Below are positions 7,675-26,764 of a stretch of DNA of 64,000 bases, piece after piece (the first letter of the stretch is position 1; each line of letters begins with the position of its first letter). The DNA comes from Halogeometricum sp. S1BR25-6 (GTDB taxonomy: Archaea; Halobacteriota; Halobacteria; Halobacteriales; Haloferacaceae), in NCBI RefSeq assembly GCF_031624495.1, contig NZ_JAMQOP010000003.1:1-64000 (forward strand). Direction: 5' to 3'. Position numbers and translations under genes: made by a program. Under the pieces are notes generated by a model. The model was not told the origin of the DNA. It worked only from the letters and a program-made list of their open reading frames with translations, and searched no databases.

Positions 7675-9045
7675 CTACGACGACGGGGCGGAGGCGACTT
7701 CGTTCCCCGCGGCGTCGACGGCGTCGGTGAAGATGCCGATTCCCAGTTCGATTTCGCGCTCGGTCGAATCGAGCGGTGGGAGGAGCCGAATCGTCTTCTT
7801 CCCGCACCCGAGCGTGAGGAGGCCGCGCTTCAGCGACTCCTCGACGACCGCGTTGCGACGGTCGGTGGTGTCGAACTCGACGGCGAGCATCAGCCCCTTC
7901 CCGCGGACGTCGGCCACGTACTCCGGCGCGTCGTCGCGGAGCAGTTCCTTCGCCTGCCGGCCGCGTTCGGTGGCGTTGGCCAGCAGGTCGTGCTCCTCGA
8001 TGGCTTCGAGCGTGAACACGCCCTGCATCGATGAGAGGATGTCGCCGCCGCCGAACGTCGACCCGAGGCGGTTCGATTCGCTTGGGAAGAGCTCGGAGTT
8101 CGAGATGGTCGCGCCGACCCGGAGACCCTTCGCGCTGGCGATGACGTCGGGTTCGATGGGGTAGTGGTCCGCCGCCCACATCTCGCCGGTTCGTCCGACG
8201 CCCGACTGTATCTCGTCGACGACCAGGGGGATGTCGTACTCGTCGGTCACGTCCCCCACCTCCCGCATGAACGCCTCGCTCGGGAAGCGGTAGCCGCCGA
8301 CGCCCTGAATCGGTTCCATCACGACGAACGCCACCTCTTCGGGGTTGACGTGGCCGCCCTCGGGAGATAGCGCCCGCCGCAACTGCGACCCATCGCGGGG
8401 CGAGAACCCGCAGTCGCACTCCCCTTCGGTGCAGTGTCGGTCGGTGCAGAACGGGACGGTCTTGACACCCGAAATCTCGGGGTAGTGGCGGGTGTACACC
8501 TCGTTTGAGCGCGTGACGGAGAGCGTCGCCATCGTCCGGCCGTGGAAGCTTCCCTCGAAGGCGAAGCCGTACTTCGCCGCCGGCGCGTCGTCGTACGTTA
8601 TCTTCAGCGCGTTCTCCACCGCCTCGGCGCCGGAGTTCGAGAGGAACACCGTGTCCATCCCGTACTGGTCGGACACGTCGCAGAGCTTCTTCATCAGGTG
8701 ACTAGCGCCCGGGAACGGCGACTCCTCCGGGTCCGGTCCGGCGCCGTAGTACATGTCCTGTCCCGCTATCTTCATCGGCTCCACGAGGTCGAACTCGCGG
8801 AGTTTCCCGAGCACCTTCTCGTTGTTGTAACCCAGCGGGGCAGCGCCGATGTGGCAGGTGAAATCGAGCAGCACGTTCCCGTCCACGTCGGTGACGAACG
8901 GCCCGTCCGCCTCGGCGGTCACGTCCCAGACGAACTCGTGGGAGTACTCGCTCGGCGCGGCGTGTTCCGAGTGGAACTCGATCCACTCCGCGGCGTTCGG
9001 ACCCGGTAGACCCTCGGCTGTCGGCTCCGCGGTGTGCCTGTCCAT
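7675..9045 (-). CDS. Class III aminotransferase (4-aminobutyrate/diaminobutyrate type)
   Basis: A 456-aa PLP enzyme. Motifs include SNSGAEAVENALK (phosphate site), FEGSFHGRT, VVMEPIQGVGG, VVDEIQSGVGRTG and the cofactor lysine in IASAKGLRVG. A Cys-rich insert around residues 200-215 (CTDRHCTEGECDCG) corresponds to where archaeal relatives carry a CxxC-type loop. It transfers an omega-amino group to 2-oxoglutarate; GABA or 2,4-diaminobutyrate are the likeliest donors from context. It is divergent from the lactonase-alcohol dehydrogenase pair and convergent with the CocE gene. The ATG is 28 nt from a clear TATA box. Confidence 0.92.
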   Translation of the reverse strand: MDRHTAEPTAEGLPGPNAAEWIEFHSEHAAPSEYSHEFVWDVTAEADGPFVTDVDGNVLLDFTCHIGAAPLGYNNEKVLGKLREFDLVEPMKIAGQDMYYGAGPDPEESPFPGASHLMKKLCDVSDQYGMDTVFLSNSGAEAVENALKITYDDAPAAKYGFAFEGSFHGRTMATLSVTRSNEVYTRHYPEISGVKTVPFCTDRHCTEGECDCGFSPRDGSQLRRALSPEGGHVNPEEVAFVVMEPIQGVGGYRFPSEAFMREVGDVTDEYDIPLVVDEIQSGVGRTGEMWAADHYPIEPDVIASAKGLRVGATISNSELFPSESNRLGSTFGGGDILSSMQGVFTLEAIEEHDLLANATERGRQAKELLRDDAPEYVADVRGKGLMLAVEFDTTDRRNAVVEESLKRGLLTLGCGKKTIRLLPPLDSTEREIELGIGIFTDAVDAAGNEVASAPSS

Positions 9046-9067
9046 ACACGGAGAGTGTGTATGCCGT

Positions 9068-9077
9068 CCATTAAAAC
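9068..9077 (-). promoter_or_regulatory. TATA box of the class III aminotransferase
   Basis: On the minus strand gttttaatgg is centred 27-28 nt before the ATG at 9045. This is a textbook leaderless haloarchaeal promoter. Confidence 0.7.
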
Positions 9078-9535
9078 TAATTATTTTTCGAGTACAGCGT
9101 CTGGAAATAAATTGTCTTCGACGGTCAGAGAGCCCGTTTCCGCCGCCGTCGGTCGTTCGAGCCGGCCGAATCGTCCGCGCACGGGCGTTCGTCGACGCGT
9201 CGGCTCCGACGTCGGCCGTGGTCTGTGCGGAACGAGTGGTTCCACCTCGATATCAAAATAGAAATCCATAAATGTGGACTCAGGTGTTTTTATCTCCGAT
9301 TTCACAATTAGACGTACAGTAGTGCATCTTAATTCTCTCACAAAGATTTTCCTAGCCGAAATATGAGTTCGTATCGTGCCATACGATTGCAGATATCTAT
9401 ACAGTCCGCGATCGTCCGCGGCGCGAAGCGGCCGACTCGAACTCCCCTTACCGGCTTCCGACCTATCGGTGCTGAAGGAACGAGCGTTGTCGAGTACCCA
9501 CCAGACTTTTGACATTGTTAATCGCACTAGTTCGC
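9078..9535. other. Intergenic region without a convincing gene
   Basis: Between the divergent aminotransferase and lactonase genes the DNA is unusually AT-rich for this genome (9080-9370). Open frames here are short and lack haloarchaeal codon bias. A weak T-rich element, cttttgac at 9506-9513, lies 27 nt before the lactonase ATG and could be its promoter. Confidence 0.5.
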
Positions 9536-10339
9536 ATGGTAGATGCGACGATAGAAGTCATCGACCGCGGGGGACTGGAGTGCGACCTCAACTACCTCGT
9601 CGAGGGTAACACGCTCGGGACGCACGACGAACCGAACCCGCCGACGGACTACGTCGAGATTCCGGTGTGGAACCTCGTCATCGACCACCCCGAGGCGACC
9701 ATCCTCTGGGACACCGGCAATCACGAGGATGCCCTCGACGGCCACTGGCCCGAGGGGCTGAAGCAGGCGTTCTACCCGCACGACGTGCGCGAGCACACCC
9801 TGGAGGGCGACCTCGGCGACGCGGGCTACTCGCTCGACGACATCGACGCCGTGTTCCAGACCCACCTCCACCTCGACCACGCGGGCGGTCTCCACCACTT
9901 CGACGGAACGGACGTGCCCGTCTACGTCCACGAGGAGGAGGTGAAGTTCGCCTACTACTCCGCGAAGACCGACGAGGGAAGCGGCGCGTATATCTTGGGG
10001 GACTTCGACCACGACCTGAACTGGCAGGTGCTCCACCAGGACCGCGAGACGCATTTCGAGGATATGGAGTTCGTCCGCCTCCCCGGACATACGCCCGGTC
10101 TCACGGGGACGATGATACACCTCGACGACCACGGCACCGTCGTGTTCGCGGGCGACGAAATCTATCAGAGCGACAACTACGAGGAGGAGGTACCGTTGGG
10201 CGCGCAACTGCTCTGGAGCGGTCGCCACTGGTTCGACAGCCTCCAGACGCTGAAGGACCTCGAACGGCGACACGACGCCGAAGTCGTCTACGGCCACGAC
10301 CCCGAGCAGTTCGCCGAAATCGAGTCGGGGTGGTCCTGA
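9536..10339 (+). CDS. MBL-fold lactonase (AHL/gamma-butyrolactone lactonase family)
   Basis: A 267-aa cytosolic metallo-beta-lactamase-fold hydrolase of the AiiA/AttM (BlcC) type. The dinuclear zinc motif is THLHLDHAGG, with later ligands in LPGHTPG and FAGDEIY and a closing YGHDPEQF. These enzymes open N-acyl-homoserine lactones or gamma-butyrolactone. ATG 9536 (MVDATIEVIDRGG) is preferred over an upstream in-frame start at 9509 that would add nine residues. Its TGA overlaps the ATG of the next gene by one base, so the two form an operon. The partner, an iron alcohol dehydrogenase, points to gamma-butyrolactone rather than a signal molecule; that is inference. Confidence 0.88.
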   Translation: MVDATIEVIDRGGLECDLNYLVEGNTLGTHDEPNPPTDYVEIPVWNLVIDHPEATILWDTGNHEDALDGHWPEGLKQAFYPHDVREHTLEGDLGDAGYSLDDIDAVFQTHLHLDHAGGLHHFDGTDVPVYVHEEEVKFAYYSAKTDEGSGAYILGDFDHDLNWQVLHQDRETHFEDMEFVRLPGHTPGLTGTMIHLDDHGTVVFAGDEIYQSDNYEEEVPLGAQLLWSGRHWFDSLQTLKDLERRHDAEVVYGHDPEQFAEIESGWS

Positions 10340-11658
10340 TGAGCTACGAGCGCTCCGTCTCGGCGCCGAACCACGGCCTCGACCCGGAGACAGTGTGGCA
10401 CATCGACATCCCGGAGATACGCTTCGGGCGCGACTCGACCGAGGAACTCGCGTTCCAACTCCGCGATTTAGGCGTCGACGAGGACGCGCGCGGCCTCGTC
10501 GTCACCGACGAGACCCTCGTCGACGTCGGTCACGCCGACCGCGTCGCCGGCGAAATCGAAGACGACGGCCTCTCGGTCGACGTCTACGACGGCTCCGAGC
10601 GCGAACCGTCCGTCGAGGCCGTCACGGACTGCATCGAGTTCGTCCGCGAGGAGGCGGGGGAGGCGGGCTACGATTTCTACGTCGGCCTCGGCGGCGGCAG
10701 TTGCATGGACACCGCGAAGGTGACCCGGGCGGTCATCGCCAACGGCGGCGAACCGCTGGACTACGTGGCCGAACCGACCGGCGAGGGCGAACCCCTGACC
10801 GAGTCGGGCGAACCGCTCGTGTTGATGCCGACGACGGCCGGAACGGGCGCCGAAATCTCGCCCGTCGCCATCCTCTCGGTCCCGGAAAAGGAGATAAAGG
10901 AGGGCATCTCCTCGAACCACGTCCGCGCCGACGCCGCCGTCCTCGACCCGACGCTCACGACGACGCTCCCGCCGGACCTGACGGCGAAGACGGCGATGGA
11001 CGCGCTCGGACACGCCATCGAGGGCTACACGACCCACGAGTACGACTCGCTGCTGCGGCCGAGCGACCCGGCCGAGCGACCGGTGTACGCCGGGCGGACG
11101 CCGCTGACGGAGATGTTCTCGGAGAAGGCCATCGACCTGCTGTCGAACAACGTCCGCACCGCCGTCCACAACGGCGACGACCTGGCGGCCCGCGAGAACA
11201 TGCTTCAAGGGGCGCTCTTCGGCGCCATCGCCGGACTGACCGCGGGCGCGACCCTCTGTCACGCGATGGCGTACCCCGTCGGCAACAAGTACCACACGAC
11301 GCACGGCGAGACCATCGCCGTCCTCACGCCGGCCAGCACCATCGACTACAACTCCGCGAGCGACCCCTCGCGGTTCGCCGACATCGCCGAGATGTTCGGC
11401 GTCGACACCGACGGGATGACCGACCGCGAGGCGACAGACGCGCTGAAAGCGGAGTACGTCCAACTCCAACGCGATCTGAACGTTCTGCCGAGCGGCCTCG
11501 AAGAACTCGCCGGCATCACCGAGGAGGACGTCGATTGGCTGGCCGAACAGACCGTCGAGACGCAGAAGCGCCTCCTGCGAACCAACCCCCGGCCCGTCAC
11601 CGAGGACGACGTTCGCGACGTCTTCCTCGACGCCCTCAACAACTGGGAGGAGCAGTAA
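10339..11658 (+). CDS. Iron-containing alcohol dehydrogenase / hydroxyacid-oxoacid transhydrogenase
   Basis: A 439-aa group III metal-dependent alcohol dehydrogenase. The NAD/metal domain shows GLGGGSCMDTAK and MPTTAGTGAE. Metal ligands lie in GHAIEGYTTHEYD, CHAMAYPVGNKYH and TTHGET. Length and the split HAIEGY...GRTPLTEMFS spacing match the ADHFE1/HOT branch, which oxidises 4-hydroxybutyrate to succinate semialdehyde, with 2-oxoglutarate as acceptor in HOT enzymes. It begins in the stop of the lactonase gene (TGATG). The pair parallels BlcC-BlcB in Agrobacterium; the matching semialdehyde dehydrogenase is not in this window. Confidence 0.88.
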   Translation: MSYERSVSAPNHGLDPETVWHIDIPEIRFGRDSTEELAFQLRDLGVDEDARGLVVTDETLVDVGHADRVAGEIEDDGLSVDVYDGSEREPSVEAVTDCIEFVREEAGEAGYDFYVGLGGGSCMDTAKVTRAVIANGGEPLDYVAEPTGEGEPLTESGEPLVLMPTTAGTGAEISPVAILSVPEKEIKEGISSNHVRADAAVLDPTLTTTLPPDLTAKTAMDALGHAIEGYTTHEYDSLLRPSDPAERPVYAGRTPLTEMFSEKAIDLLSNNVRTAVHNGDDLAARENMLQGALFGAIAGLTAGATLCHAMAYPVGNKYHTTHGETIAVLTPASTIDYNSASDPSRFADIAEMFGVDTDGMTDREATDALKAEYVQLQRDLNVLPSGLEELAGITEEDVDWLAEQTVETQKRLLRTNPRPVTEDDVRDVFLDALNNWEEQ

Positions 11659-13122: not shown

Positions 13123-14007
13123 TTAGTGGTGGAGCTGCTCGGGGACGGGGCTGTCCTCGCCGCGGAGTCGCTCGATGAGCGACCGCTGGGCGGCCTCGTC
13201 CATCCCGTCGTAGCGGGCAGCGGCGTCGAGCACCATCGCGACGAGTTTCGGGTCGCCGGGCGAGACGACGCTCGTCAAACCCTGCGCGGCGGCGAAGTCG
13301 AACCGCTCTCGAATCTCGTCGGGTGCGCCGACCGGTTCGTACCAGTTCGCGTACGGTCGGTCCTCCTCGGGTAACTCCTCCGTCGACGGCCACGACCCCT
13401 TCGCGAACGCCTTGATGCCGAGCGTGCCGATTCCCTCCTCGTCGGCGCGTTCCAACACGGCCTCGTAGTCGTGCTCCTCGCCGTCCTTCCCGGCGACGAC
13501 CGGGTTGAGCGGGAACATCAGCGATTCGAGGTCGTCGATGCGGTCGACGGCGTCCAGAATCAGCCCCGGCGACCCGTGGCTCGTCAGTCCGATGTGGTCT
13601 ATCAACCCCTCGTCTTTCGCGTCGCGGAACGCTCCGAGCGCCCCCCCGTCGCTCGTTATCTCGTCCAGTTCCTCCTCGTACTCCAGTCCGTGGACCTGGT
13701 AGAGGTCTATCTTCTCGACGCCCAGGCGGTCCAGCGAGCGTTCGAGTTTCCGCCGCGCGCCGTCGTAGTCCCGCTCTTGGGTCTTGCAGCCCAGGAATAT
13801 CTCCTCGCGGTGCTGCCGGAGTTTCGGTCCGAGTTTCAGTTCCGCGTCGCCGTACGTCGGCGCCACGTCGAAGTGGTTCACCCCGCGGTCGAGGACGAGT
13901 TCCACCATCTGGTCGGCCCCCTCCTGTTCGAGCCAGTTGAGCGCTATCGCACCGAACGTCGCGACGGTGCTGTCGTGGCCCGTCCGCCCGAATGTGCGCG
14001 TTTGCAT
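13123..14007 (-). CDS. Aldo/keto reductase
   Basis: A 294-aa NAD(P)H-dependent TIM-barrel reductase. The tetrad is visible: Asp and Tyr in HFDVAPTYGD, Lys in LGCKTQ and His in YQVHGLEY. Later motifs include IGLTSHG and GIKAFAKGSW. It would reduce aldehydes or ketones; the substrate is unknown. ATG 14007 (MQTRTFGRTG) is fixed by a TATA box 29 nt upstream and by alignment with the family N-terminus; a longer frame to 14100 is not used. The IclR regulator upstream on the same strand may control it, but the 304-nt gap with its own promoter argues for separate transcripts. Confidence 0.9.
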   Translation of the reverse strand: MQTRTFGRTGHDSTVATFGAIALNWLEQEGADQMVELVLDRGVNHFDVAPTYGDAELKLGPKLRQHREEIFLGCKTQERDYDGARRKLERSLDRLGVEKIDLYQVHGLEYEEELDEITSDGGALGAFRDAKDEGLIDHIGLTSHGSPGLILDAVDRIDDLESLMFPLNPVVAGKDGEEHDYEAVLERADEEGIGTLGIKAFAKGSWPSTEELPEEDRPYANWYEPVGAPDEIRERFDFAAAQGLTSVVSPGDPKLVAMVLDAAARYDGMDEAAQRSLIERLRGEDSPVPEQLHH

Positions 14008-14031
14008 GCGTACCGCTAACGAGCACAACAC

Positions 14032-14040
14032 GAATAAACT
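14032..14040 (-). promoter_or_regulatory. TATA box of the aldo/keto reductase
   Basis: Minus-strand agtttattc is centred 29 nt before the ATG at 14007. Confidence 0.6.
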
Positions 14041-14311
14041 GTGGGCTCCCCCGCACCCGACGGTCGCTCCGTCCCGTCGCCCGACGGCGACCCGAAGCAC
14101 CGGCGGAACCGCTTCGTCGTCCGTCCGCCGCGAGCGAGAACAACGACATACGCGTGGCCGAGGCTCCGAATCACCGTCGGCCTCCCCCGTCGAATAGTTT
14201 CGAGACGGCTCACAACCTCTACAATTTCCAAAATTTGTACGGCTCAGAGCGCCGCAGTCGGACGCGCGTTCCCGTTCGAACAGCGGACACGGTGGTGTCC
14301 GTACCGGTGCT
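14041..14311. other. Regulator-reductase spacer with an AT-rich imperfect palindrome
   Basis: No gene is seen. Within GC-rich DNA, 14218-14238 reads tacaatttccaaaatttgta, an imperfect inverted repeat (one-base slip). It could be an operator for the adjacent IclR regulator, but it lies about 180 nt upstream of the reductase promoter. Weak evidence. Confidence 0.3.
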
Positions 14312-15082
14312 TCACGTCCCCTGCTCGGCGAGTCGCCGTTCGAAGACGGCGGCCTTCTCGTCGAGTGCGTCCACCACGGCGCGCTCTCTCGACTCGTCGT
14401 GGGCGTAGGTCGGCGCGCAGACGTTGATCGAACCGCACACCGTCCCGTCCGGTCCCGTAACGGGGACGCCTATCGCCCACATCCCCTCGATGGCCTCCCC
14501 GAAACTCGTGGCGTGCCCCCGTTCCCTGACGGCTTCGAGTTCCTCCACGAGTTCGTCGGCGTCGGTGATGGTGCGTTCCGTCTGTGCGGGAAGCCCCCAC
14601 CGGTCGAGTATCGCTCGGACTCGCTCCTCTGAGTACTCCGAGAGGATGGACTTGCCCGAGGCGGTGCTGTGGACGTGGAACAGTCGGCTGTCCACGAGCG
14701 AGGAAGCGGTGTCCGAGAACGTCGACACGTCGTACAGCGAGACGATGCGACCGTTCTCCTCGACGGTGAAGTCCGCCTCCAGTTGCGTCTCGTCGGCCAG
14801 TTCCGGCACGACCGCTCTGGCCACCTCGTAGGCTTCGTGCCGCTTTCGCGCGTAGTTCCCAAGGTGGTAGAGTTTCACGCCGACGTGGTAGGTGTCGCCC
14901 TCGCGGTTCAGATAGCCGTACTGTGAGAGAGTCTTCAGGTGGTTGTGGACGGTGCTCTTCGCCAACCCCGTCTCCGCGGTCAGTTCGGCGAGCGTCGCGC
15001 CGTCGAGTTCGGTGACGTGTTCGACGACCCGGAGCGAAATATCGGTCGTCTGGAGCGTATCTCCGGTTCTGCGCGGCTTCAT
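14312..15082 (-). CDS. IclR-family transcriptional regulator
   Basis: A 256-aa cytosolic repressor/activator. Residues 8-70 form the winged helix (TLAELTAETGLAKSTVHNHL as recognition region). The rest is the IclR effector domain with HVHSTASGKS, GLPAQTERT and a ligand-pocket end of GSINVCAPTY. The ATG at 15082 (MKPRRTG) has a TATA element 27 nt upstream; a far longer in-frame extension upstream has no family resemblance. IclR proteins usually sense aromatic or aliphatic acids and control nearby catabolic genes. The target could be the reductase or the lactonase operon; this is not shown by sequence. Confidence 0.92.
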   Translation of the reverse strand: MKPRRTGDTLQTTDISLRVVEHVTELDGATLAELTAETGLAKSTVHNHLKTLSQYGYLNREGDTYHVGVKLYHLGNYARKRHEAYEVARAVVPELADETQLEADFTVEENGRIVSLYDVSTFSDTASSLVDSRLFHVHSTASGKSILSEYSEERVRAILDRWGLPAQTERTITDADELVEELEAVRERGHATSFGEAIEGMWAIGVPVTGPDGTVCGSINVCAPTYAHDESRERAVVDALDEKAAVFERRLAEQGT

Positions 15083-15104
15083 GCCGTAGTCGTCGTCGTG
15101 AGAG

Positions 15105-15114
15105 TACTTATCAG
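15105..15114 (-). promoter_or_regulatory. TATA box of the IclR regulator
   Basis: Minus-strand ctgataagta is centred 27 nt before the ATG at 15082. Confidence 0.65.
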
Positions 15115-15561
15115 TGTGTCTCGCGAGGCGACCGTTTCGGCTCTGTCCTCGGTCGCCGGCCGCTCCAGCGGATTTTGTGTCCACTCGCCGCCTTCGACGA
15201 CCGAGTAACCGGTGTCGCGAAAGCCCGCGACCGACATCACGCGTTCCCTCGAGACGAGTAGCATAGGGACGGATTTCTCTACCACCCGGCGAAAAGACGT
15301 ATACGGTGTCTGAGCCACGTAGACGGCGCCACCGAGCGTCGCTCACGACACGTTACAGCCGTAGCTTTGTCTTGCTCCGCTCCGAAGGCGTTTCCGGGAA
15401 CGAACCCGTCCGAACGACCGTCGGGCCGGATGCCCGTCCGTTCGACTTTCCGAACCGTCCGGTTTCGGCAGCACGAACTCGCGCGTCCACGCTCTGTTTC
15501 TCGGAACCCGGACGGCGGTCGGACGTCTCGACGTAGTTCTACCTGCCGTGTTTTGCGACTA
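15115..15561. other. Long non-coding stretch upstream of the regulator
   Basis: This holds only short open frames on both strands, rich in Arg, Ser and Pro and without haloarchaeal acidic bias. No motif is recognised. Together with 15648-15883 it forms an approximately 800-nt gap around a nested palindrome, as expected of a relic insertion site. Confidence 0.4.
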
Positions 15562-21372: not shown

Positions 21373-22824
21373 ATGCACGTGTTCACGCGACAGACGGTGG
21401 TAGAGTTCGGTGGGAACGAAGAACGTAAGACCGACGGCGACTCCGTTTCGGTACAGAAATCGGTCTCGCGGACGGACGAAGAGGTGGTCGTCGAGTACGA
21501 ACTCGCGGTCGAACGGGAGACACCCGTCGCCGTGCGCGTGGTCGACGCGATTCCGGCGGACGAGCGCGTCGCTCGGTTCCGCGGCGACGTACACTACTAC
21601 GAATTCTCCGAGCGGGGTTTAGAGCTGTACGCCGAAGTCGGGCACGACCCGGTGACCCGAATCTCGCTCTCGTTTCACGCTCCGGTGGCTGACGTCGACC
21701 GGTTCGACTCGACCCCGGACGTGAATCTGATACGGACGCTATCGGCCGTTCACGGGGACGGTGACGACCGCTCGACGGTCGATGAGGAGGTCGGCGACGA
21801 CCGGCCGGCCGTCGGCATCGTCGCAACGGCGTCGAACGGCGACGCGCTCGTCCGTACCGCGCTTCGGGCGCTGACGCGCGGCTTCGTCGTCCTCCTCGGT
21901 GACCGAGGCGACGCCGACGTGGAAGCGCTCCGCCTCTGTGAGCGGTTCGGCGCGACGCGCGTTTCGCTGCCGAGTACGGAGGACGACGGCGACCTCCGGC
22001 GCGCCCTCTCGGCGGCGGCGCAAGCGCGGTCGCTCCCCGGTCTCGTCTTTCAGGGGTCGCCCGACCGTCGGATCGACTTCGACCGCTCGCTCGCGGACTT
22101 CCGACGAGCGGGCGAGTGCTCGGTCGAGGCGCGCTACGAGGACGACGCCGACGCGCGAGACGACCCGACGTCGCTGGCCGTCGCTCTCCTGACTCGCGGC
22201 GAGGGCGACCGCATCGGCGACGCCGTCGCCGCCGCGCGACTGTTCGCCGACGAGGTCATCGTCGTCGCTACAGGAAACATCGACGGAACGGCTAACAAAG
22301 CCGCCGCGACCGGGGCGACGGTTCGGTGGGACGACGGCGACCGGGGGCCCGGCGCGACGTTCCGCTCGCTGTTCCGGACGGCCGTCGAACGCGGCGCCGA
22401 CGCCCTCGCCGTCGTCGAGGTGGGCGAGCGGTACGACGTCGGCGACCTCCCGCGACTCCTCGAAGACCACAGACGGGCCGACGCCGAGATTACGGTCGGA
22501 CGCCAGTCCGACGGAGACGCCCGATCCGGCGTCAACCCGCTCGGTTCGACCCGAAAGTGGATAGCGAACCGCCGCACGCTCGCCCGCCTCGGCGCCGTTC
22601 GACTCCACCCGCTCGTCGGGCGGTTTCGGAGCGGTCTTCACGTCTACGACCGTCGGGCGTTGGAGACCCTGGCGGCGGACGAGTCCGTCGACGAGGCGTC
22701 CGACGTCGGTCTCGCAATCCTCTCTCACGCCGCGAGGCGCGGCTACCGCGTCCGGGAGGTCGACGGACGGGACGTTTCGACCCCGAGCGAGCACCGTTCG
22801 ACGCCCGGTCCGCGGTCGGAGTGA
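21373..22824 (+). CDS. Conserved-type protein with N-terminal beta domain and glycosyltransferase-like C-terminus
   Basis: A 483-aa cytosolic protein. Residues 1-105 are rich in beta-strands (SVSRTDEEVVVEYELAVER, VVDAIPADERV), like haloarchaeal surface-regulator beta domains. After an acidic linker, residues 140-270 look like a nucleotide-sugar-type Rossmann repeat (VGIVATASNGDALVRTALRA). Residues 275-440 resemble a family-2 glycosyltransferase core (VALLTRGEGDRIGDAV, EVIVVATGNIDGTANKAAA, DALAVVEVGERY). The usual catalytic DxD is not obvious. Possibly an inactive or unusual transferase in glycosylation; confidence in function is low, in the gene high. Confidence 0.75.
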   Translation: MHVFTRQTVVEFGGNEERKTDGDSVSVQKSVSRTDEEVVVEYELAVERETPVAVRVVDAIPADERVARFRGDVHYYEFSERGLELYAEVGHDPVTRISLSFHAPVADVDRFDSTPDVNLIRTLSAVHGDGDDRSTVDEEVGDDRPAVGIVATASNGDALVRTALRALTRGFVVLLGDRGDADVEALRLCERFGATRVSLPSTEDDGDLRRALSAAAQARSLPGLVFQGSPDRRIDFDRSLADFRRAGECSVEARYEDDADARDDPTSLAVALLTRGEGDRIGDAVAAARLFADEVIVVATGNIDGTANKAAATGATVRWDDGDRGPGATFRSLFRTAVERGADALAVVEVGERYDVGDLPRLLEDHRRADAEITVGRQSDGDARSGVNPLGSTRKWIANRRTLARLGAVRLHPLVGRFRSGLHVYDRRALETLAADESVDEASDVGLAILSHAARRGYRVREVDGRDVSTPSEHRSTPGPRSE

Positions 22825-24190: not shown

Positions 24191-24317
24191 ACTTCGATGT
24201 AGGCGAGCCGAGATACTATCGGCGCAGAGGTCGGTATCGAGCGCGGCCGTCGAAAAGAAAGGGAGAAGGGAGGCCGGAGAGGGAAAGCGCTCTATCGCCG
24301 TCGCGACTGACGGCGCG

Positions 24318-24419
24318 TCAGCCGACCAGAAGGGTCACAGCCGCGAACGTGACGAGGAACCCGAATTCGGGCTTGGTCCCGCCAGTCGCGGTGGCGCCGT
24401 CCTCGGTGAGCGTTTCCGT
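24318..24419 (-). pseudogene. In-frame C-terminal tail cut off by two amber codons
   Basis: Directly after the cohesin-gene stop (TAG, 24426-24428) the same frame reads CCG, a second TAG (24420-24422), then 33 sense codons to a TGA at 24318-24320. The tail has an acidic/Thr/Gly linker followed by PEFGFLVTFAAVTLLVG, a hydrophobic C-terminal segment like the membrane anchors or PGF-type sorting tails of haloarchaeal surface proteins. Codon use looks coding. It is either a decayed anchor or evidence of readthrough. Confidence 0.55.
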
Positions 24420-24425
24420 CTACGG

Positions 24426-24947
24426 CTACTCGACGCTCAGGGTTACGTTGCCGTACGTCTCCGGAGTGAACGCTTGCCCGCCGTCGGTGACGAACTTCGT
24501 CTCCGACCGGTCGAACGAGAGCGCGGTGCTCTCGCCTGCTTCTCCGACCACCGTCAGCGTGATTTCGACTAAGACGGGATCGTCCATCTCCGAAGGGCGG
24601 GCCTGATTGAACACGACGCTACCGCTCTCGTTGTCCACATTCGAGACCGGGGCGGCGAAGTCGTCGCTCCCCGCTACCTCGTCGACCCGCACGACGTCGG
24701 GGTCGAAGCCGAGCCTCGTCTGGTAGCCGGTCACCGCCGACGCGTTCGCCCATACGGTCACCGTAATGGTCTCGCCGGGTTCCGCGGTGAGAGCGTCGTC
24801 CGGCGACGTCGCCGTTTCCTCTCCGACGCTGATCGCTGTCGTCGTCGCCGAGGCTGTCGATTCTGTCACCATGACCGCCCCGACGGAGACGGTTGCGATC
24901 GCCATCAGCAGGGCGCAGACGGCCAACACGTTGGTTCGGTCGCTCAC
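24426..24947 (-). CDS. Secreted cohesin-domain protein
   Basis: A 173-aa protein. Residues 1-28 form an N-terminal hydrophobic signal (LAVCALLMAIATVSVGAVMV). The remaining ~140 residues resemble a type I cohesin: an opening GETITVTVWANASAVTGYQ strand pair, LGFDPDVVRV, a central SGSVVFNQA strand, VLVEITLTVVGEAG, and a final YGNVTLSVE. Cohesins bind dockerins on partner proteins. The gene overlaps by ATGA with the upstream gene, whose product ends in a dockerin, so the two products probably bind each other outside the cell. The expected C-terminal anchor lies beyond two stop codons. Confidence 0.78.
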   Translation of the reverse strand: MSDRTNVLAVCALLMAIATVSVGAVMVTESTASATTTAISVGEETATSPDDALTAEPGETITVTVWANASAVTGYQTRLGFDPDVVRVDEVAGSDDFAAPVSNVDNESGSVVFNQARPSEMDDPVLVEITLTVVGEAGESTALSFDRSETKFVTDGGQAFTPETYGNVTLSVE

Positions 24948-26764
24948 TGCTGGCCCTCGCTGATGTTTCTCGCACCGATCGCATCGGCGATATCCACGTC
25001 GCCGTCGCCGTCCACGTCCGCCGCGTCGGCGTCGATGTCGACGTCCTTCCCGGCCACCGAGCGCTGGATTGCATCGACGTCGTCACCGTCCACGTCGCCG
25101 TCGCCGTCGGCGTCGCCCGTTACGGTGCCACCGTCGTCGCCCCCGTTGGACGGGGTGTACCGGACGGTGAGACGGGGTGGAGTGTCGCTCTCCGCCGTTG
25201 CGAGGTCGAAGCCGTCCTTTCCGGTGGGAGAGAACACCCACCCGAGGTTCCGTTCGCCGTCGACCCACGCCTGCACGCTCGCGGTCACGTCGACGGTGAA
25301 CGTCCCCACTGCGACAGCGCTGGTCCCGACGACGGGGTCGGACGCCGCGTCGGAGTCGTTCGTTTGGATACCGCCGCCGACCGAGGTCCACGTGTCGCCG
25401 CCGTCCCAACCGGTGCGCATCTGGTGAAGCGTCGCTCCGTCGCCGTCGTTCACGCATTCGAGAGCCAGCGTGGCGGTGTCGACGGTCGATCCCGGCGGTA
25501 TCTGTCGCTCGCCGTCGCCGACGATACCGTCGAACCGGAGGAGTGCCTGCGCGGCCTCTCCGGAGTCGGACGGTTCGTCGCTATCCACCGCCATCGTCTC
25601 CTCGTCTCCGTACGTCGTCGTCGGGTCGGACTCGTAGAGGGTGGTGTCGACCGTACCGCCGTAGCCGTCGACGCCCTGTTGGAACGCGGTGCTCGTCGGC
25701 TCCTTGGGTTCGGCGAAGCGAGCGTCGAAGTCGAGGTCGAAATCGAACTCGCTGTTAGCGTCCGTTTCGGCTCCGGTGACCGGCGAGTACGTCCGAACGT
25801 GGATTCGGTCGGGGGCGTCGTCGCTGCCGCCCTCGTCGGGTCGGAACTGGATCTGACGGAAGAGTCCGTGTCCCCCCTCGTCTCTCTGCTGATAGTTCGC
25901 GAGCATCTGGTAGACCTCCTCGCTGGCGTCGTTCATCGACACCTTTCGGGCCTCGCCGCCGCCTCTGTACCAGTGGCCGCAGAGGACCATGAACACCTGC
26001 GCGTTCGGTTTGATGAGCTCTTTCCAGACGGTCCGACCCGTGTTTCCGTCCTCCTCTTCCTCCTGGACGGATCGGAGTCGGACGACGGGGTCGGTCCGGA
26101 GGTACGAGTGCGTGGTGACGATGGTCGGCCGGTCGGAGTACTCTTCCAGCACTTCCTGCGCCCATCCGAGGGGCGTGGAGGGGTCGTCCACGTCCCCCCG
26201 CGGTTCCCACTCCAAGGCGAGATGGAGGAAGTCGTAGCCGCCCGCGGAGAACAGTTGGTAGCTGTTGAGTTCGTTGTCCCCAGGGCCCGCGCCGCCGAAG
26301 TAGTCCCGTCCCTCGTGACGCGAGGGTCCGAAGTACCGGACGTAGTTGTCGACCGATGAACTCCGCTTTCCGACGGTCTCCCAGTCGTGGTTGCCGGGGA
26401 CGGTCGAGTAGGGGACGACGCCGTCGAGCGTCGACATGGCTCCGTCCATGTGCTCCCACTCTTCGATTTCGCTTGCGTTCTCGACCACGTCGCCGACGTG
26501 GCTCACGAAGGCGATGTTCTCGCTCTCGCGATTGTCGGCGATCCACTGCGTCATCTCGGCAGGATATTCCGACGTGTCCTCGGCGTAAAACTGCGTGTCG
26601 GGCAGGGCGACGATCGACCACGACTCCTCGCTCTGGGCCACCCCGGTCGATGTGCCGAATCCCGCCAGTCCCGCGCTGACTCCGAGGGCCTTCAGCACGG
26701 TACGTCGGGTGGCAGTCGGTCCCGCGGGGTCCCCCTCGACGTCGGTCGCTCGTAATCGTCTCAT
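24944..26764 (-). CDS. Tat-exported metallophosphoesterase with DNRLRE-like and dockerin domains
   Basis: A 606-aa secreted protein. A Tat signal is at residues 18-45 (TRRTVLKALG). A calcineurin-like phosphoesterase occupies 48-330, with LPDTQFY, HVGDVVEN, VPGNHDW, VTTHSYL and CGHWYRGG providing the metal ligands. A beta domain at 365-540 resembles DNRLRE/CBM96-type modules (DTTLYESDPTTTYGDEE, LLRFDGI, VQAWVDGERNLGW). A type I dockerin at 546-606 has two calcium loops (DADGDGDVDGDD and DVDGDGDVDIAD). It hydrolyses phosphoesters, perhaps of extracellular nucleic acids or lipids. It is the first gene of a two-gene operon with the cohesin protein. Confidence 0.85.
   Translation of the reverse strand: MRRLRATDVEGDPAGPTATRRTVLKALGVSAGLAGFGTSTGVAQSEESWSIVALPDTQFYAEDTSEYPAEMTQWIADNRESENIAFVSHVGDVVENASEIEEWEHMDGAMSTLDGVVPYSTVPGNHDWETVGKRSSSVDNYVRYFGPSRHEGRDYFGGAGPGDNELNSYQLFSAGGYDFLHLALEWEPRGDVDDPSTPLGWAQEVLEEYSDRPTIVTTHSYLRTDPVVRLRSVQEEEEDGNTGRTVWKELIKPNAQVFMVLCGHWYRGGGEARKVSMNDASEEVYQMLANYQQRDEGGHGLFRQIQFRPDEGGSDDAPDRIHVRTYSPVTGAETDANSEFDFDLDFDARFAEPKEPTSTAFQQGVDGYGGTVDTTLYESDPTTTYGDEETMAVDSDEPSDSGEAAQALLRFDGIVGDGERQIPPGSTVDTATLALECVNDGDGATLHQMRTGWDGGDTWTSVGGGIQTNDSDAASDPVVGTSAVAVGTFTVDVTASVQAWVDGERNLGWVFSPTGKDGFDLATAESDTPPRLTVRYTPSNGGDDGGTVTGDADGDGDVDGDDVDAIQRSVAGKDVDIDADAADVDGDGDVDIADAIGARNISEGQQ

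Follow-up and report, generated by a model that had tools for sequence, protein, structure and literature searches.

Specific binding between archaeal cohesins and dockerins has been reported, in studies cited in PMC9012536. In two papers on haloarchaeal polysaccharide degraders, the type I dockerin is given a substrate-binding role with no cohesin (PMC10963439, PMC13260240), and no description of a pair made of one enzyme and one anchored cohesin was found in the open-access literature; the survey of archaeal cohesins by Peer et al. (2009) lay outside that search. For haloarchaea carrying a cohesin together with a dockerin, only a general biotechnology review was found. The two-gene unit considered here lies in a 64,000-nucleotide stretch of Halogeometricum sp. 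S1BR25-6 (the window; G000:C3:1-64000), whose genome of 4.5 Mb is assembled in nine contigs. A preliminary description of this DNA had proposed that a dockerin gene and a cohesin gene form a pair here, the dockerin being borne by a phosphoesterase; both genes are present, with the following features:

24944..26764, minus strand: metallophosphoesterase gene with dockerin, 606 aa (open reading frame; Pfam matches; orthologues in two congeners)
26639..26716, minus strand: Tat signal region (TATRRTVLKALGV...) (NCBIfam TAT_signal_seq 15.5 against a cut-off of 16.7 bits; RR motif)
25715..26632, minus strand: metallophosphoesterase catalytic domain (DTQ, GDVVEN, GNHD, TTHSYL and GHWY motifs; fold alignment)
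25160..25648, minus strand: DNRLRE / CBM96 module (NCBIfam DNRLRE_dom 55.4 bits; Pfam CBM96 34.8 bits)
24959..25117, minus strand: C-terminal dockerin, loop 1 at 25079-25114 and loop 2 at 24983-25018 (phmmer, profile, conserved loops)
24426..24947, minus strand: exported cohesin gene, truncated, 173 aa (Pfam Cohesin; AF2; Foldseek)
24429..24845, minus strand: cohesin domain, residues 35-173 (alignment of 27 family members)
24288..24425, minus strand: decayed linker and PGF-CTERM anchor remnant, P*TETLTEDGATATGGTKPEFGFLVTFAAVTLLVG*RAVSRDGDRA (blastn to the G004 orthologue; translation)

The upstream product begins with a Tat-like signal (RRTVLKALG); the RR motif is kept in 27/27 relatives and, with an NCBIfam score just under the cut-off, supports the Tat export predicted earlier. 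Pfam Metallophos matches the enzyme at 30 bits against a cut-off of 21.5. A fold comparison with the PDB, covering residues 43-350 and leaving out the DNRLRE and dockerin parts, aligned the catalytic model with Lmo2642, purple acid phosphatase and the glycerophosphodiesterase GpdQ (Z 20-21); the match establishes the fold and says nothing about the substrate. Four metal motifs are kept in the window enzyme (DTQ, GDxxEN, GNHD and THSY), the first in its DTQ form. The GHxH motif of canonical metallophosphoesterases is present in most relatives and is replaced by GHWY in the window enzyme and its two orthologues, which belong to orthologous pairs in two congeners (G001 and G004); this replacement suggests that catalysis in the subfamily may be altered. 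The "DNRLRE-like module" of the preliminary description was rightly named, on the NCBIfam and CBM96 scores listed above.

The assignment of two calcium-loop dockerin repeats to the C-terminus also stood. Both 12-residue loops are intact (residues 551-562 and 583-594), 27 relatives show no variation at most of the acidic and glycine positions in them, and in the model they are followed by helices at 560-570 and 592-602. Pfam Dockerin_1 (PF00404) scores the window protein at 15.1-19.0 bits, below its cut-off of 22.9, which is passed by the G001 orthologue (27.5), the G004 orthologue (26.4) and the paralogue described below (23.6 bits). However, phmmer matches the window dockerin to the solved dockerin 6kge (E 3.9e-5), and the family profile finds the solved dockerin 1daq in the PDB (E 1.7e-6). 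A scan of genome contigs with dockerin-loop patterns hit rumen dockerins for the most part.

The end of the dockerin gene lies at 24944 and the GTG start of the cohesin gene at 24947, a 4-bp overlap on the minus strand, as expected from the claim that the overlapping next gene encodes an exported cohesin. Its 173-residue product consists of a signal peptide and one cohesin domain, and matches Pfam Cohesin (PF00963) at 36.6 bits (E 6e-9; gathering cut-off 24.1). Searched with phmmer against the PDB, the single window cohesin gave only chance matches to antibodies, and a profile was needed; the credible PDB matches of the family profile were cohesins only. A non-cohesin fold, which would have counted against the pair, was not seen: an AlphaFold2 model (pLDDT 94.7, with the 27 relatives as input) is predicted to have the cohesin fold, and all 38 top-ranking Foldseek hits to the PDB were cohesins (TM about 0.8), many of them from dockerin complexes and with the Archaeoglobus cohesin 2xdh among them (TM 0.76, E 7e-8).

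Evidence that the two genes belong together came from their distribution. A homologue search of 118 relatives, and then of 391 genomes of the class, collected 39 phosphoesterase homologues. Each dockerin-bearing enzyme (27/27) has a cohesin gene directly next to it on the same strand, with 23 of the 27 pairs overlapping by 4 bp and the remainder lying -1 to +6 bases apart, whereas none of the 12 dockerin-less enzymes has a cohesin in the examined stretch (five of these 12 were read in loci of about 4 kb only). A maximum-likelihood tree built from the catalytic domain shows four state changes, three of them with good branch support. In every case dockerin and cohesin change state jointly; one such joint change separates the sister copies L069 and L131 inside a single genome. 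A sign test on the three independent changes gave p 0.25, these being too few for significance, and the evidence for partnership is therefore strong but not conclusive. A mirror-tree comparison of dockerin and cohesin distances (partial r 0.33) was given no weight because the permutation removes the association with the catalytic domain as well. From the strict co-occurrence and the joint changes on the tree, a physical docking partnership is probably the best explanation of the pair.

The cohesins of the other pairs bear a membrane or archaeosortase-type anchor. The intact G004 orthologue (L042) is 517 residues long and includes an extended Glu/Thr/Pro linker, a CARDB domain and the tail STPGFGFVVTLVAMTLLVGWRAVGRDER. 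In the window the reading frame ends directly after the cohesin domain, and the C-terminal PGF-CTERM/membrane anchor, present in the paralogue and the other pairs, is absent from the protein; the in-frame remains of a PGF-CTERM anchor lie beyond the stop. Neither the truncation nor the remnant appears in the preliminary description. This remnant is 76% identical over 139 bp to the DNA of the intact G004 anchor (blastn, E 2e-23). Some 0.9 kb that would encode the linker and CARDB domain has been deleted, and there are three nonsense changes: two in-frame TAG codons and then a TGA in place of Trp. Downstream of the two TAG codons, the PGF of the anchor remnant has become PEF. Readthrough of TAG as pyrrolysine was rejected, with PylS scoring 23 bits against a cut-off of 178, the same as in ordinary control genomes; the third stop and the downstream change of PGF to PEF make decay the simpler explanation. 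This is the sole anchor loss among the 27 pairs. In the congener G001 the cohesin frame is interrupted where the assembly has an N, with the anchor encoded in a different frame; because the break coincides with that N, it was not counted as a loss. Archaeosortase A processes PGF-CTERM tails, and the source genome encodes it (349 bits), so the pathway exists and the window cohesin no longer feeds it. The surface tethering of the preliminary description thus fails at the window locus, where the cohesin has lost its anchor, and fits the paralogue and other species. Judged from sequence comparison, the window copy is an eroding, anchor-less duplicate.

A second, intact pair is present on another contig (C2) of the same genome, at L036:7170-8441 and 8438-9826, again with a 4-bp overlap. 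Its phosphoesterase lacks the DNRLRE module and has GHWH as its last metal motif, and its cohesin protein (462 residues) has the linker, the CARDB domain and a PGF-CTERM-like tail. The dockerins of the two pairs are closely similar. A third phosphoesterase paralogue on C2 (L132:4613-6247) carries a DNRLRE module, lacks the dockerin and has no cohesin gene next to it; it provides a useful internal control.

Three-species estimates of dN/dS, made per branch, separate the two pairs. On the window branch, dN is 0.118 for the enzyme and 0.125 for the cohesin, with dN/dS of 0.46 (95% 0.33-0.62) and 0.47 (95% 0.27-0.84), respectively. On the source-genome branch of the C2 pair, dN is 0.012 for the enzyme and 0.014 for the cohesin, with dN/dS of 0.09 and 0.13. 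Amino-acid change in both window genes is therefore about ten times that of the intact paralogous pair, and the flanking gene for an iron-binding protein is normal (dN/dS 0.15). These estimates indicate that both window genes are under relaxed, not absent, constraint, a pattern that would follow from a shift of the function to the anchored paralogue or from a lesser importance of the soluble form; the window copy could be of little function. Elsewhere in the window, 21373-22824 encodes a protein of 483 aa that Pfam does not match; it shares only 73.5% of its amino acids with the G001 counterpart and changes as fast as the window pair.

The genes around the conserved pairs bear on the likely role of the enzyme. 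Among 80 neighboring proteins there are 7 family-2 glycosyltransferases, 6 Gfo/Idh/MocA oxidoreductases, 5 UDP-glucose/GDP-mannose dehydrogenases, 4 sulfatases and 3 UDP-GlcNAc 2-epimerases; these glycan families are not among the multi-member families of an 80-protein control, in which single-member families may be unlisted. Most pairs, though not the one in the window, also have an HprK-related kinase-like gene next to them. The glycan context is not found at every pair locus, and the window locus is without it, having instead a sugar-type ABC transporter and an iron-siderophore-type binding protein nearby. The glycan genes and HprK-related neighbors point to surface-glycan loci rather than to the phosphate or DNA scavenging proposed earlier, which is further weakened by GHWY in place of GHxH. 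A link to the adjacent ABC transporter, as in glycerol-phosphate uptake, was considered and rejected: its proteins fall below the specific-family cut-offs, and G001 has no transporter at the locus. The HprK-like protein itself is about 380 aa, with a P-loop WRGAGKTNT and the motif SDDRLW (L036:5700-6836 on C2 of the source genome; also L046:8937-10115, L113:2558-3721, L125:6360-7487 and others), and the gene also adjoins one dockerin-less phosphoesterase (L121). It matches no Pfam family at cut-off, and NCBIfam HprK_rel_B only weakly (E 2.6e-7).

Together, these observations suggest a two-gene docking unit. The first gene would direct Tat export of a metallophosphoesterase that ends in a dockerin, presumably calcium-dependent, and the second, translationally overlapping gene would export a single cohesin. 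In intact copies the cohesin, carried on a long acidic Thr/Glu linker and a CARDB domain, would be held at the surface by its PGF-CTERM or membrane anchor; through its dockerin the enzyme would attach non-covalently to the cognate cohesin and so stay at the envelope, with the phosphoester groups of surface or extracellular glycans as its probable targets. At the window locus the deletion of about 0.9 kb and the three nonsense changes have removed the anchor, for which reason the window cohesin should be soluble, and its enzyme would either be released with it or dock onto the intact paralogous cohesin encoded on C2. This explanation as a whole, including the anchor loss in the window, is considered likely, well ahead of an even chance.

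Other explanations were weighed against it. The dockerin might be a substrate-binding module and the adjacent cohesin-like protein an unrelated surface protein, as the role assigned to type I dockerins in PMC10963439 and PMC13260240, with no cohesin mentioned, would imply; strict co-occurrence and joint change with the adjacent gene, and a partner fold that is that of cohesins solved in dockerin complexes, make this improbable. Less easily set aside, though still rather unlikely, is the view that the window pair is a non-functional relic, its truncated cohesin irrelevant and its enzyme decaying. The lost anchor, the roughly tenfold excess of amino-acid change over the paralogous pair and the GHWY motif all agree with it, but the frames are open over 606 and 173 codons, both upper 95% bounds of dN/dS (0.62 and 0.84) are below 1, and the calcium loops and cohesin core are intact.

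That the signal peptide and cohesin domain are kept, with only the anchor gone, might also mean that truncation produced an adaptive soluble form, serving to release the enzyme into the medium or acting as a decoy or competitor for the anchored paralogous cohesin; the similar dockerins of the two pairs make such cross-docking plausible. A second, independent anchor loss does not occur among the 27 pairs, however, and constraint is relaxed rather than maintained, so that an adaptive origin seems quite doubtful. Finally, the window copy may have been replaced by recombination with a diverged relative, in which case the difference in rate would not reflect relaxed selection. The somewhat high dS on the window branch (0.26, against 0.16 in the flanking gene) makes partial replacement possible, and the tree order of the window copy differs from that of the other copies. 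Yet the dS excess is modest, while dN is about five times that of the flank and ten times that of the paralogue, and the stop codons of the anchor remnant need decay in any case; recombination is thus an unlikely account of the rates.

The preliminary description had called archaeal cohesin-dockerin modules sporadic, which proved an understatement, since many haloarchaeal dockerin genes precede a gene for an anchored cohesin or cohesin-like protein. Many dockerin genes unrelated to phosphoesterases are directly followed by a gene for an exported protein, often ending in a membrane segment, whose N-terminal domain scores below Pfam Cohesin. Ten such domains, aligned and compared by profile with the cohesin alignment, matched with probability 93 and E 3e-7 over 119 columns. 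These divergent cohesin-like exported proteins, invisible to Pfam, follow dockerin genes at:

L037:7752-8603 and 8628-10592: source genome, C4
L155, L157, L158, L160, L162, L169, L173, L174 and L179: other loci

Two dockerin-tailed proteins on contig C5 of the source genome (L038:4324-6261 and 13591-15204) have no adjacent cohesin or cohesin-like gene and may be clients of existing cohesins or be read by another partner. A different arrangement is seen in a 2.7 Mb haloarchaeal genome (G074:C1; L185-L204, L045) with 56 dockerin matches: in a sample of 28 of its dockerin proteins, exported GH5/GH10/GH9/GH43 enzymes are numerous, and the only two recognizable cohesins lie side by side, one of the proteins also ending in a dockerin. 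This set is a possible archaeal cellulosome-like system. A general haloarchaeal "one enzyme, one socket" display, in which a dockerin-enzyme gene is followed by its own anchored single-cohesin receptor, many of the cohesins being missed by Pfam, can be put forward tentatively, at slightly less than even chances. If it holds, the dockerins at present assigned to substrate binding would serve as attachment tags, and a receptor that lost its anchor, as in the window, would leave its enzyme soluble or cross-docked instead of tethered.

The pairs give a directly testable answer to the role of haloarchaeal dockerins. If they bind, they would represent modular, non-covalent enzyme display on the haloarchaeal surface in near-saturating salt, joined to the archaeosortase pathway, and salt-stable cognate pairs would be useful tools for protein attachment. 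With the window locus and the C2 pair, a single genome provides both a natural mutant that has lost the anchor and an intact paralogue.

In summary, the haloarchaeal unit resembles several described systems and differs from each. The dockerin-tagged glycoside hydrolases of Natronoglomus mannanivorans (PMC10963439) are likewise exported haloarchaeal enzymes with type I dockerins, but there the dockerin is read as substrate-binding and no cohesin partner is described. The dockerin and cohesin proteins of ANME archaea (PMC9012536) share the non-cellulosomal archaeal use, with dockerins on diverse exported proteins, but include scaffoldin-like proteins with up to 5 cohesins, in contrast to the single-cohesin cognate pairs found here. 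With bacterial cellulosomes and anchoring scaffoldins the unit shares a type I-like dockerin with two calcium loops, the cohesin fold and an anchored cohesin that would hold an enzyme. It differs in having one cohesin per anchor and one adjacent cognate enzyme gene, for a phosphoesterase, and no scaffoldin or cellulose-binding module; where a cellulosome has a multi-cohesin scaffoldin and plant-wall enzymes, the source genome has two single-cohesin genes whose partners are phosphoesterases. The cohesin-dockerin system of Archaeoglobus fulgidus (2xdh) is also archaeal and non-cellulosomal, and the window model matches its cohesin. Unlike in A. fulgidus, the haloarchaeal single-cohesin gene overlaps the dockerin-phosphoesterase gene, intact copies carry an archaeosortase-type anchor, and the unit is repeated across haloarchaeal genera. 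Archaeal cohesin-dockerin binding is known; what appears new, judged by the open-access literature searched, is a putative cognate single-cohesin receptor encoded together with its enzyme.
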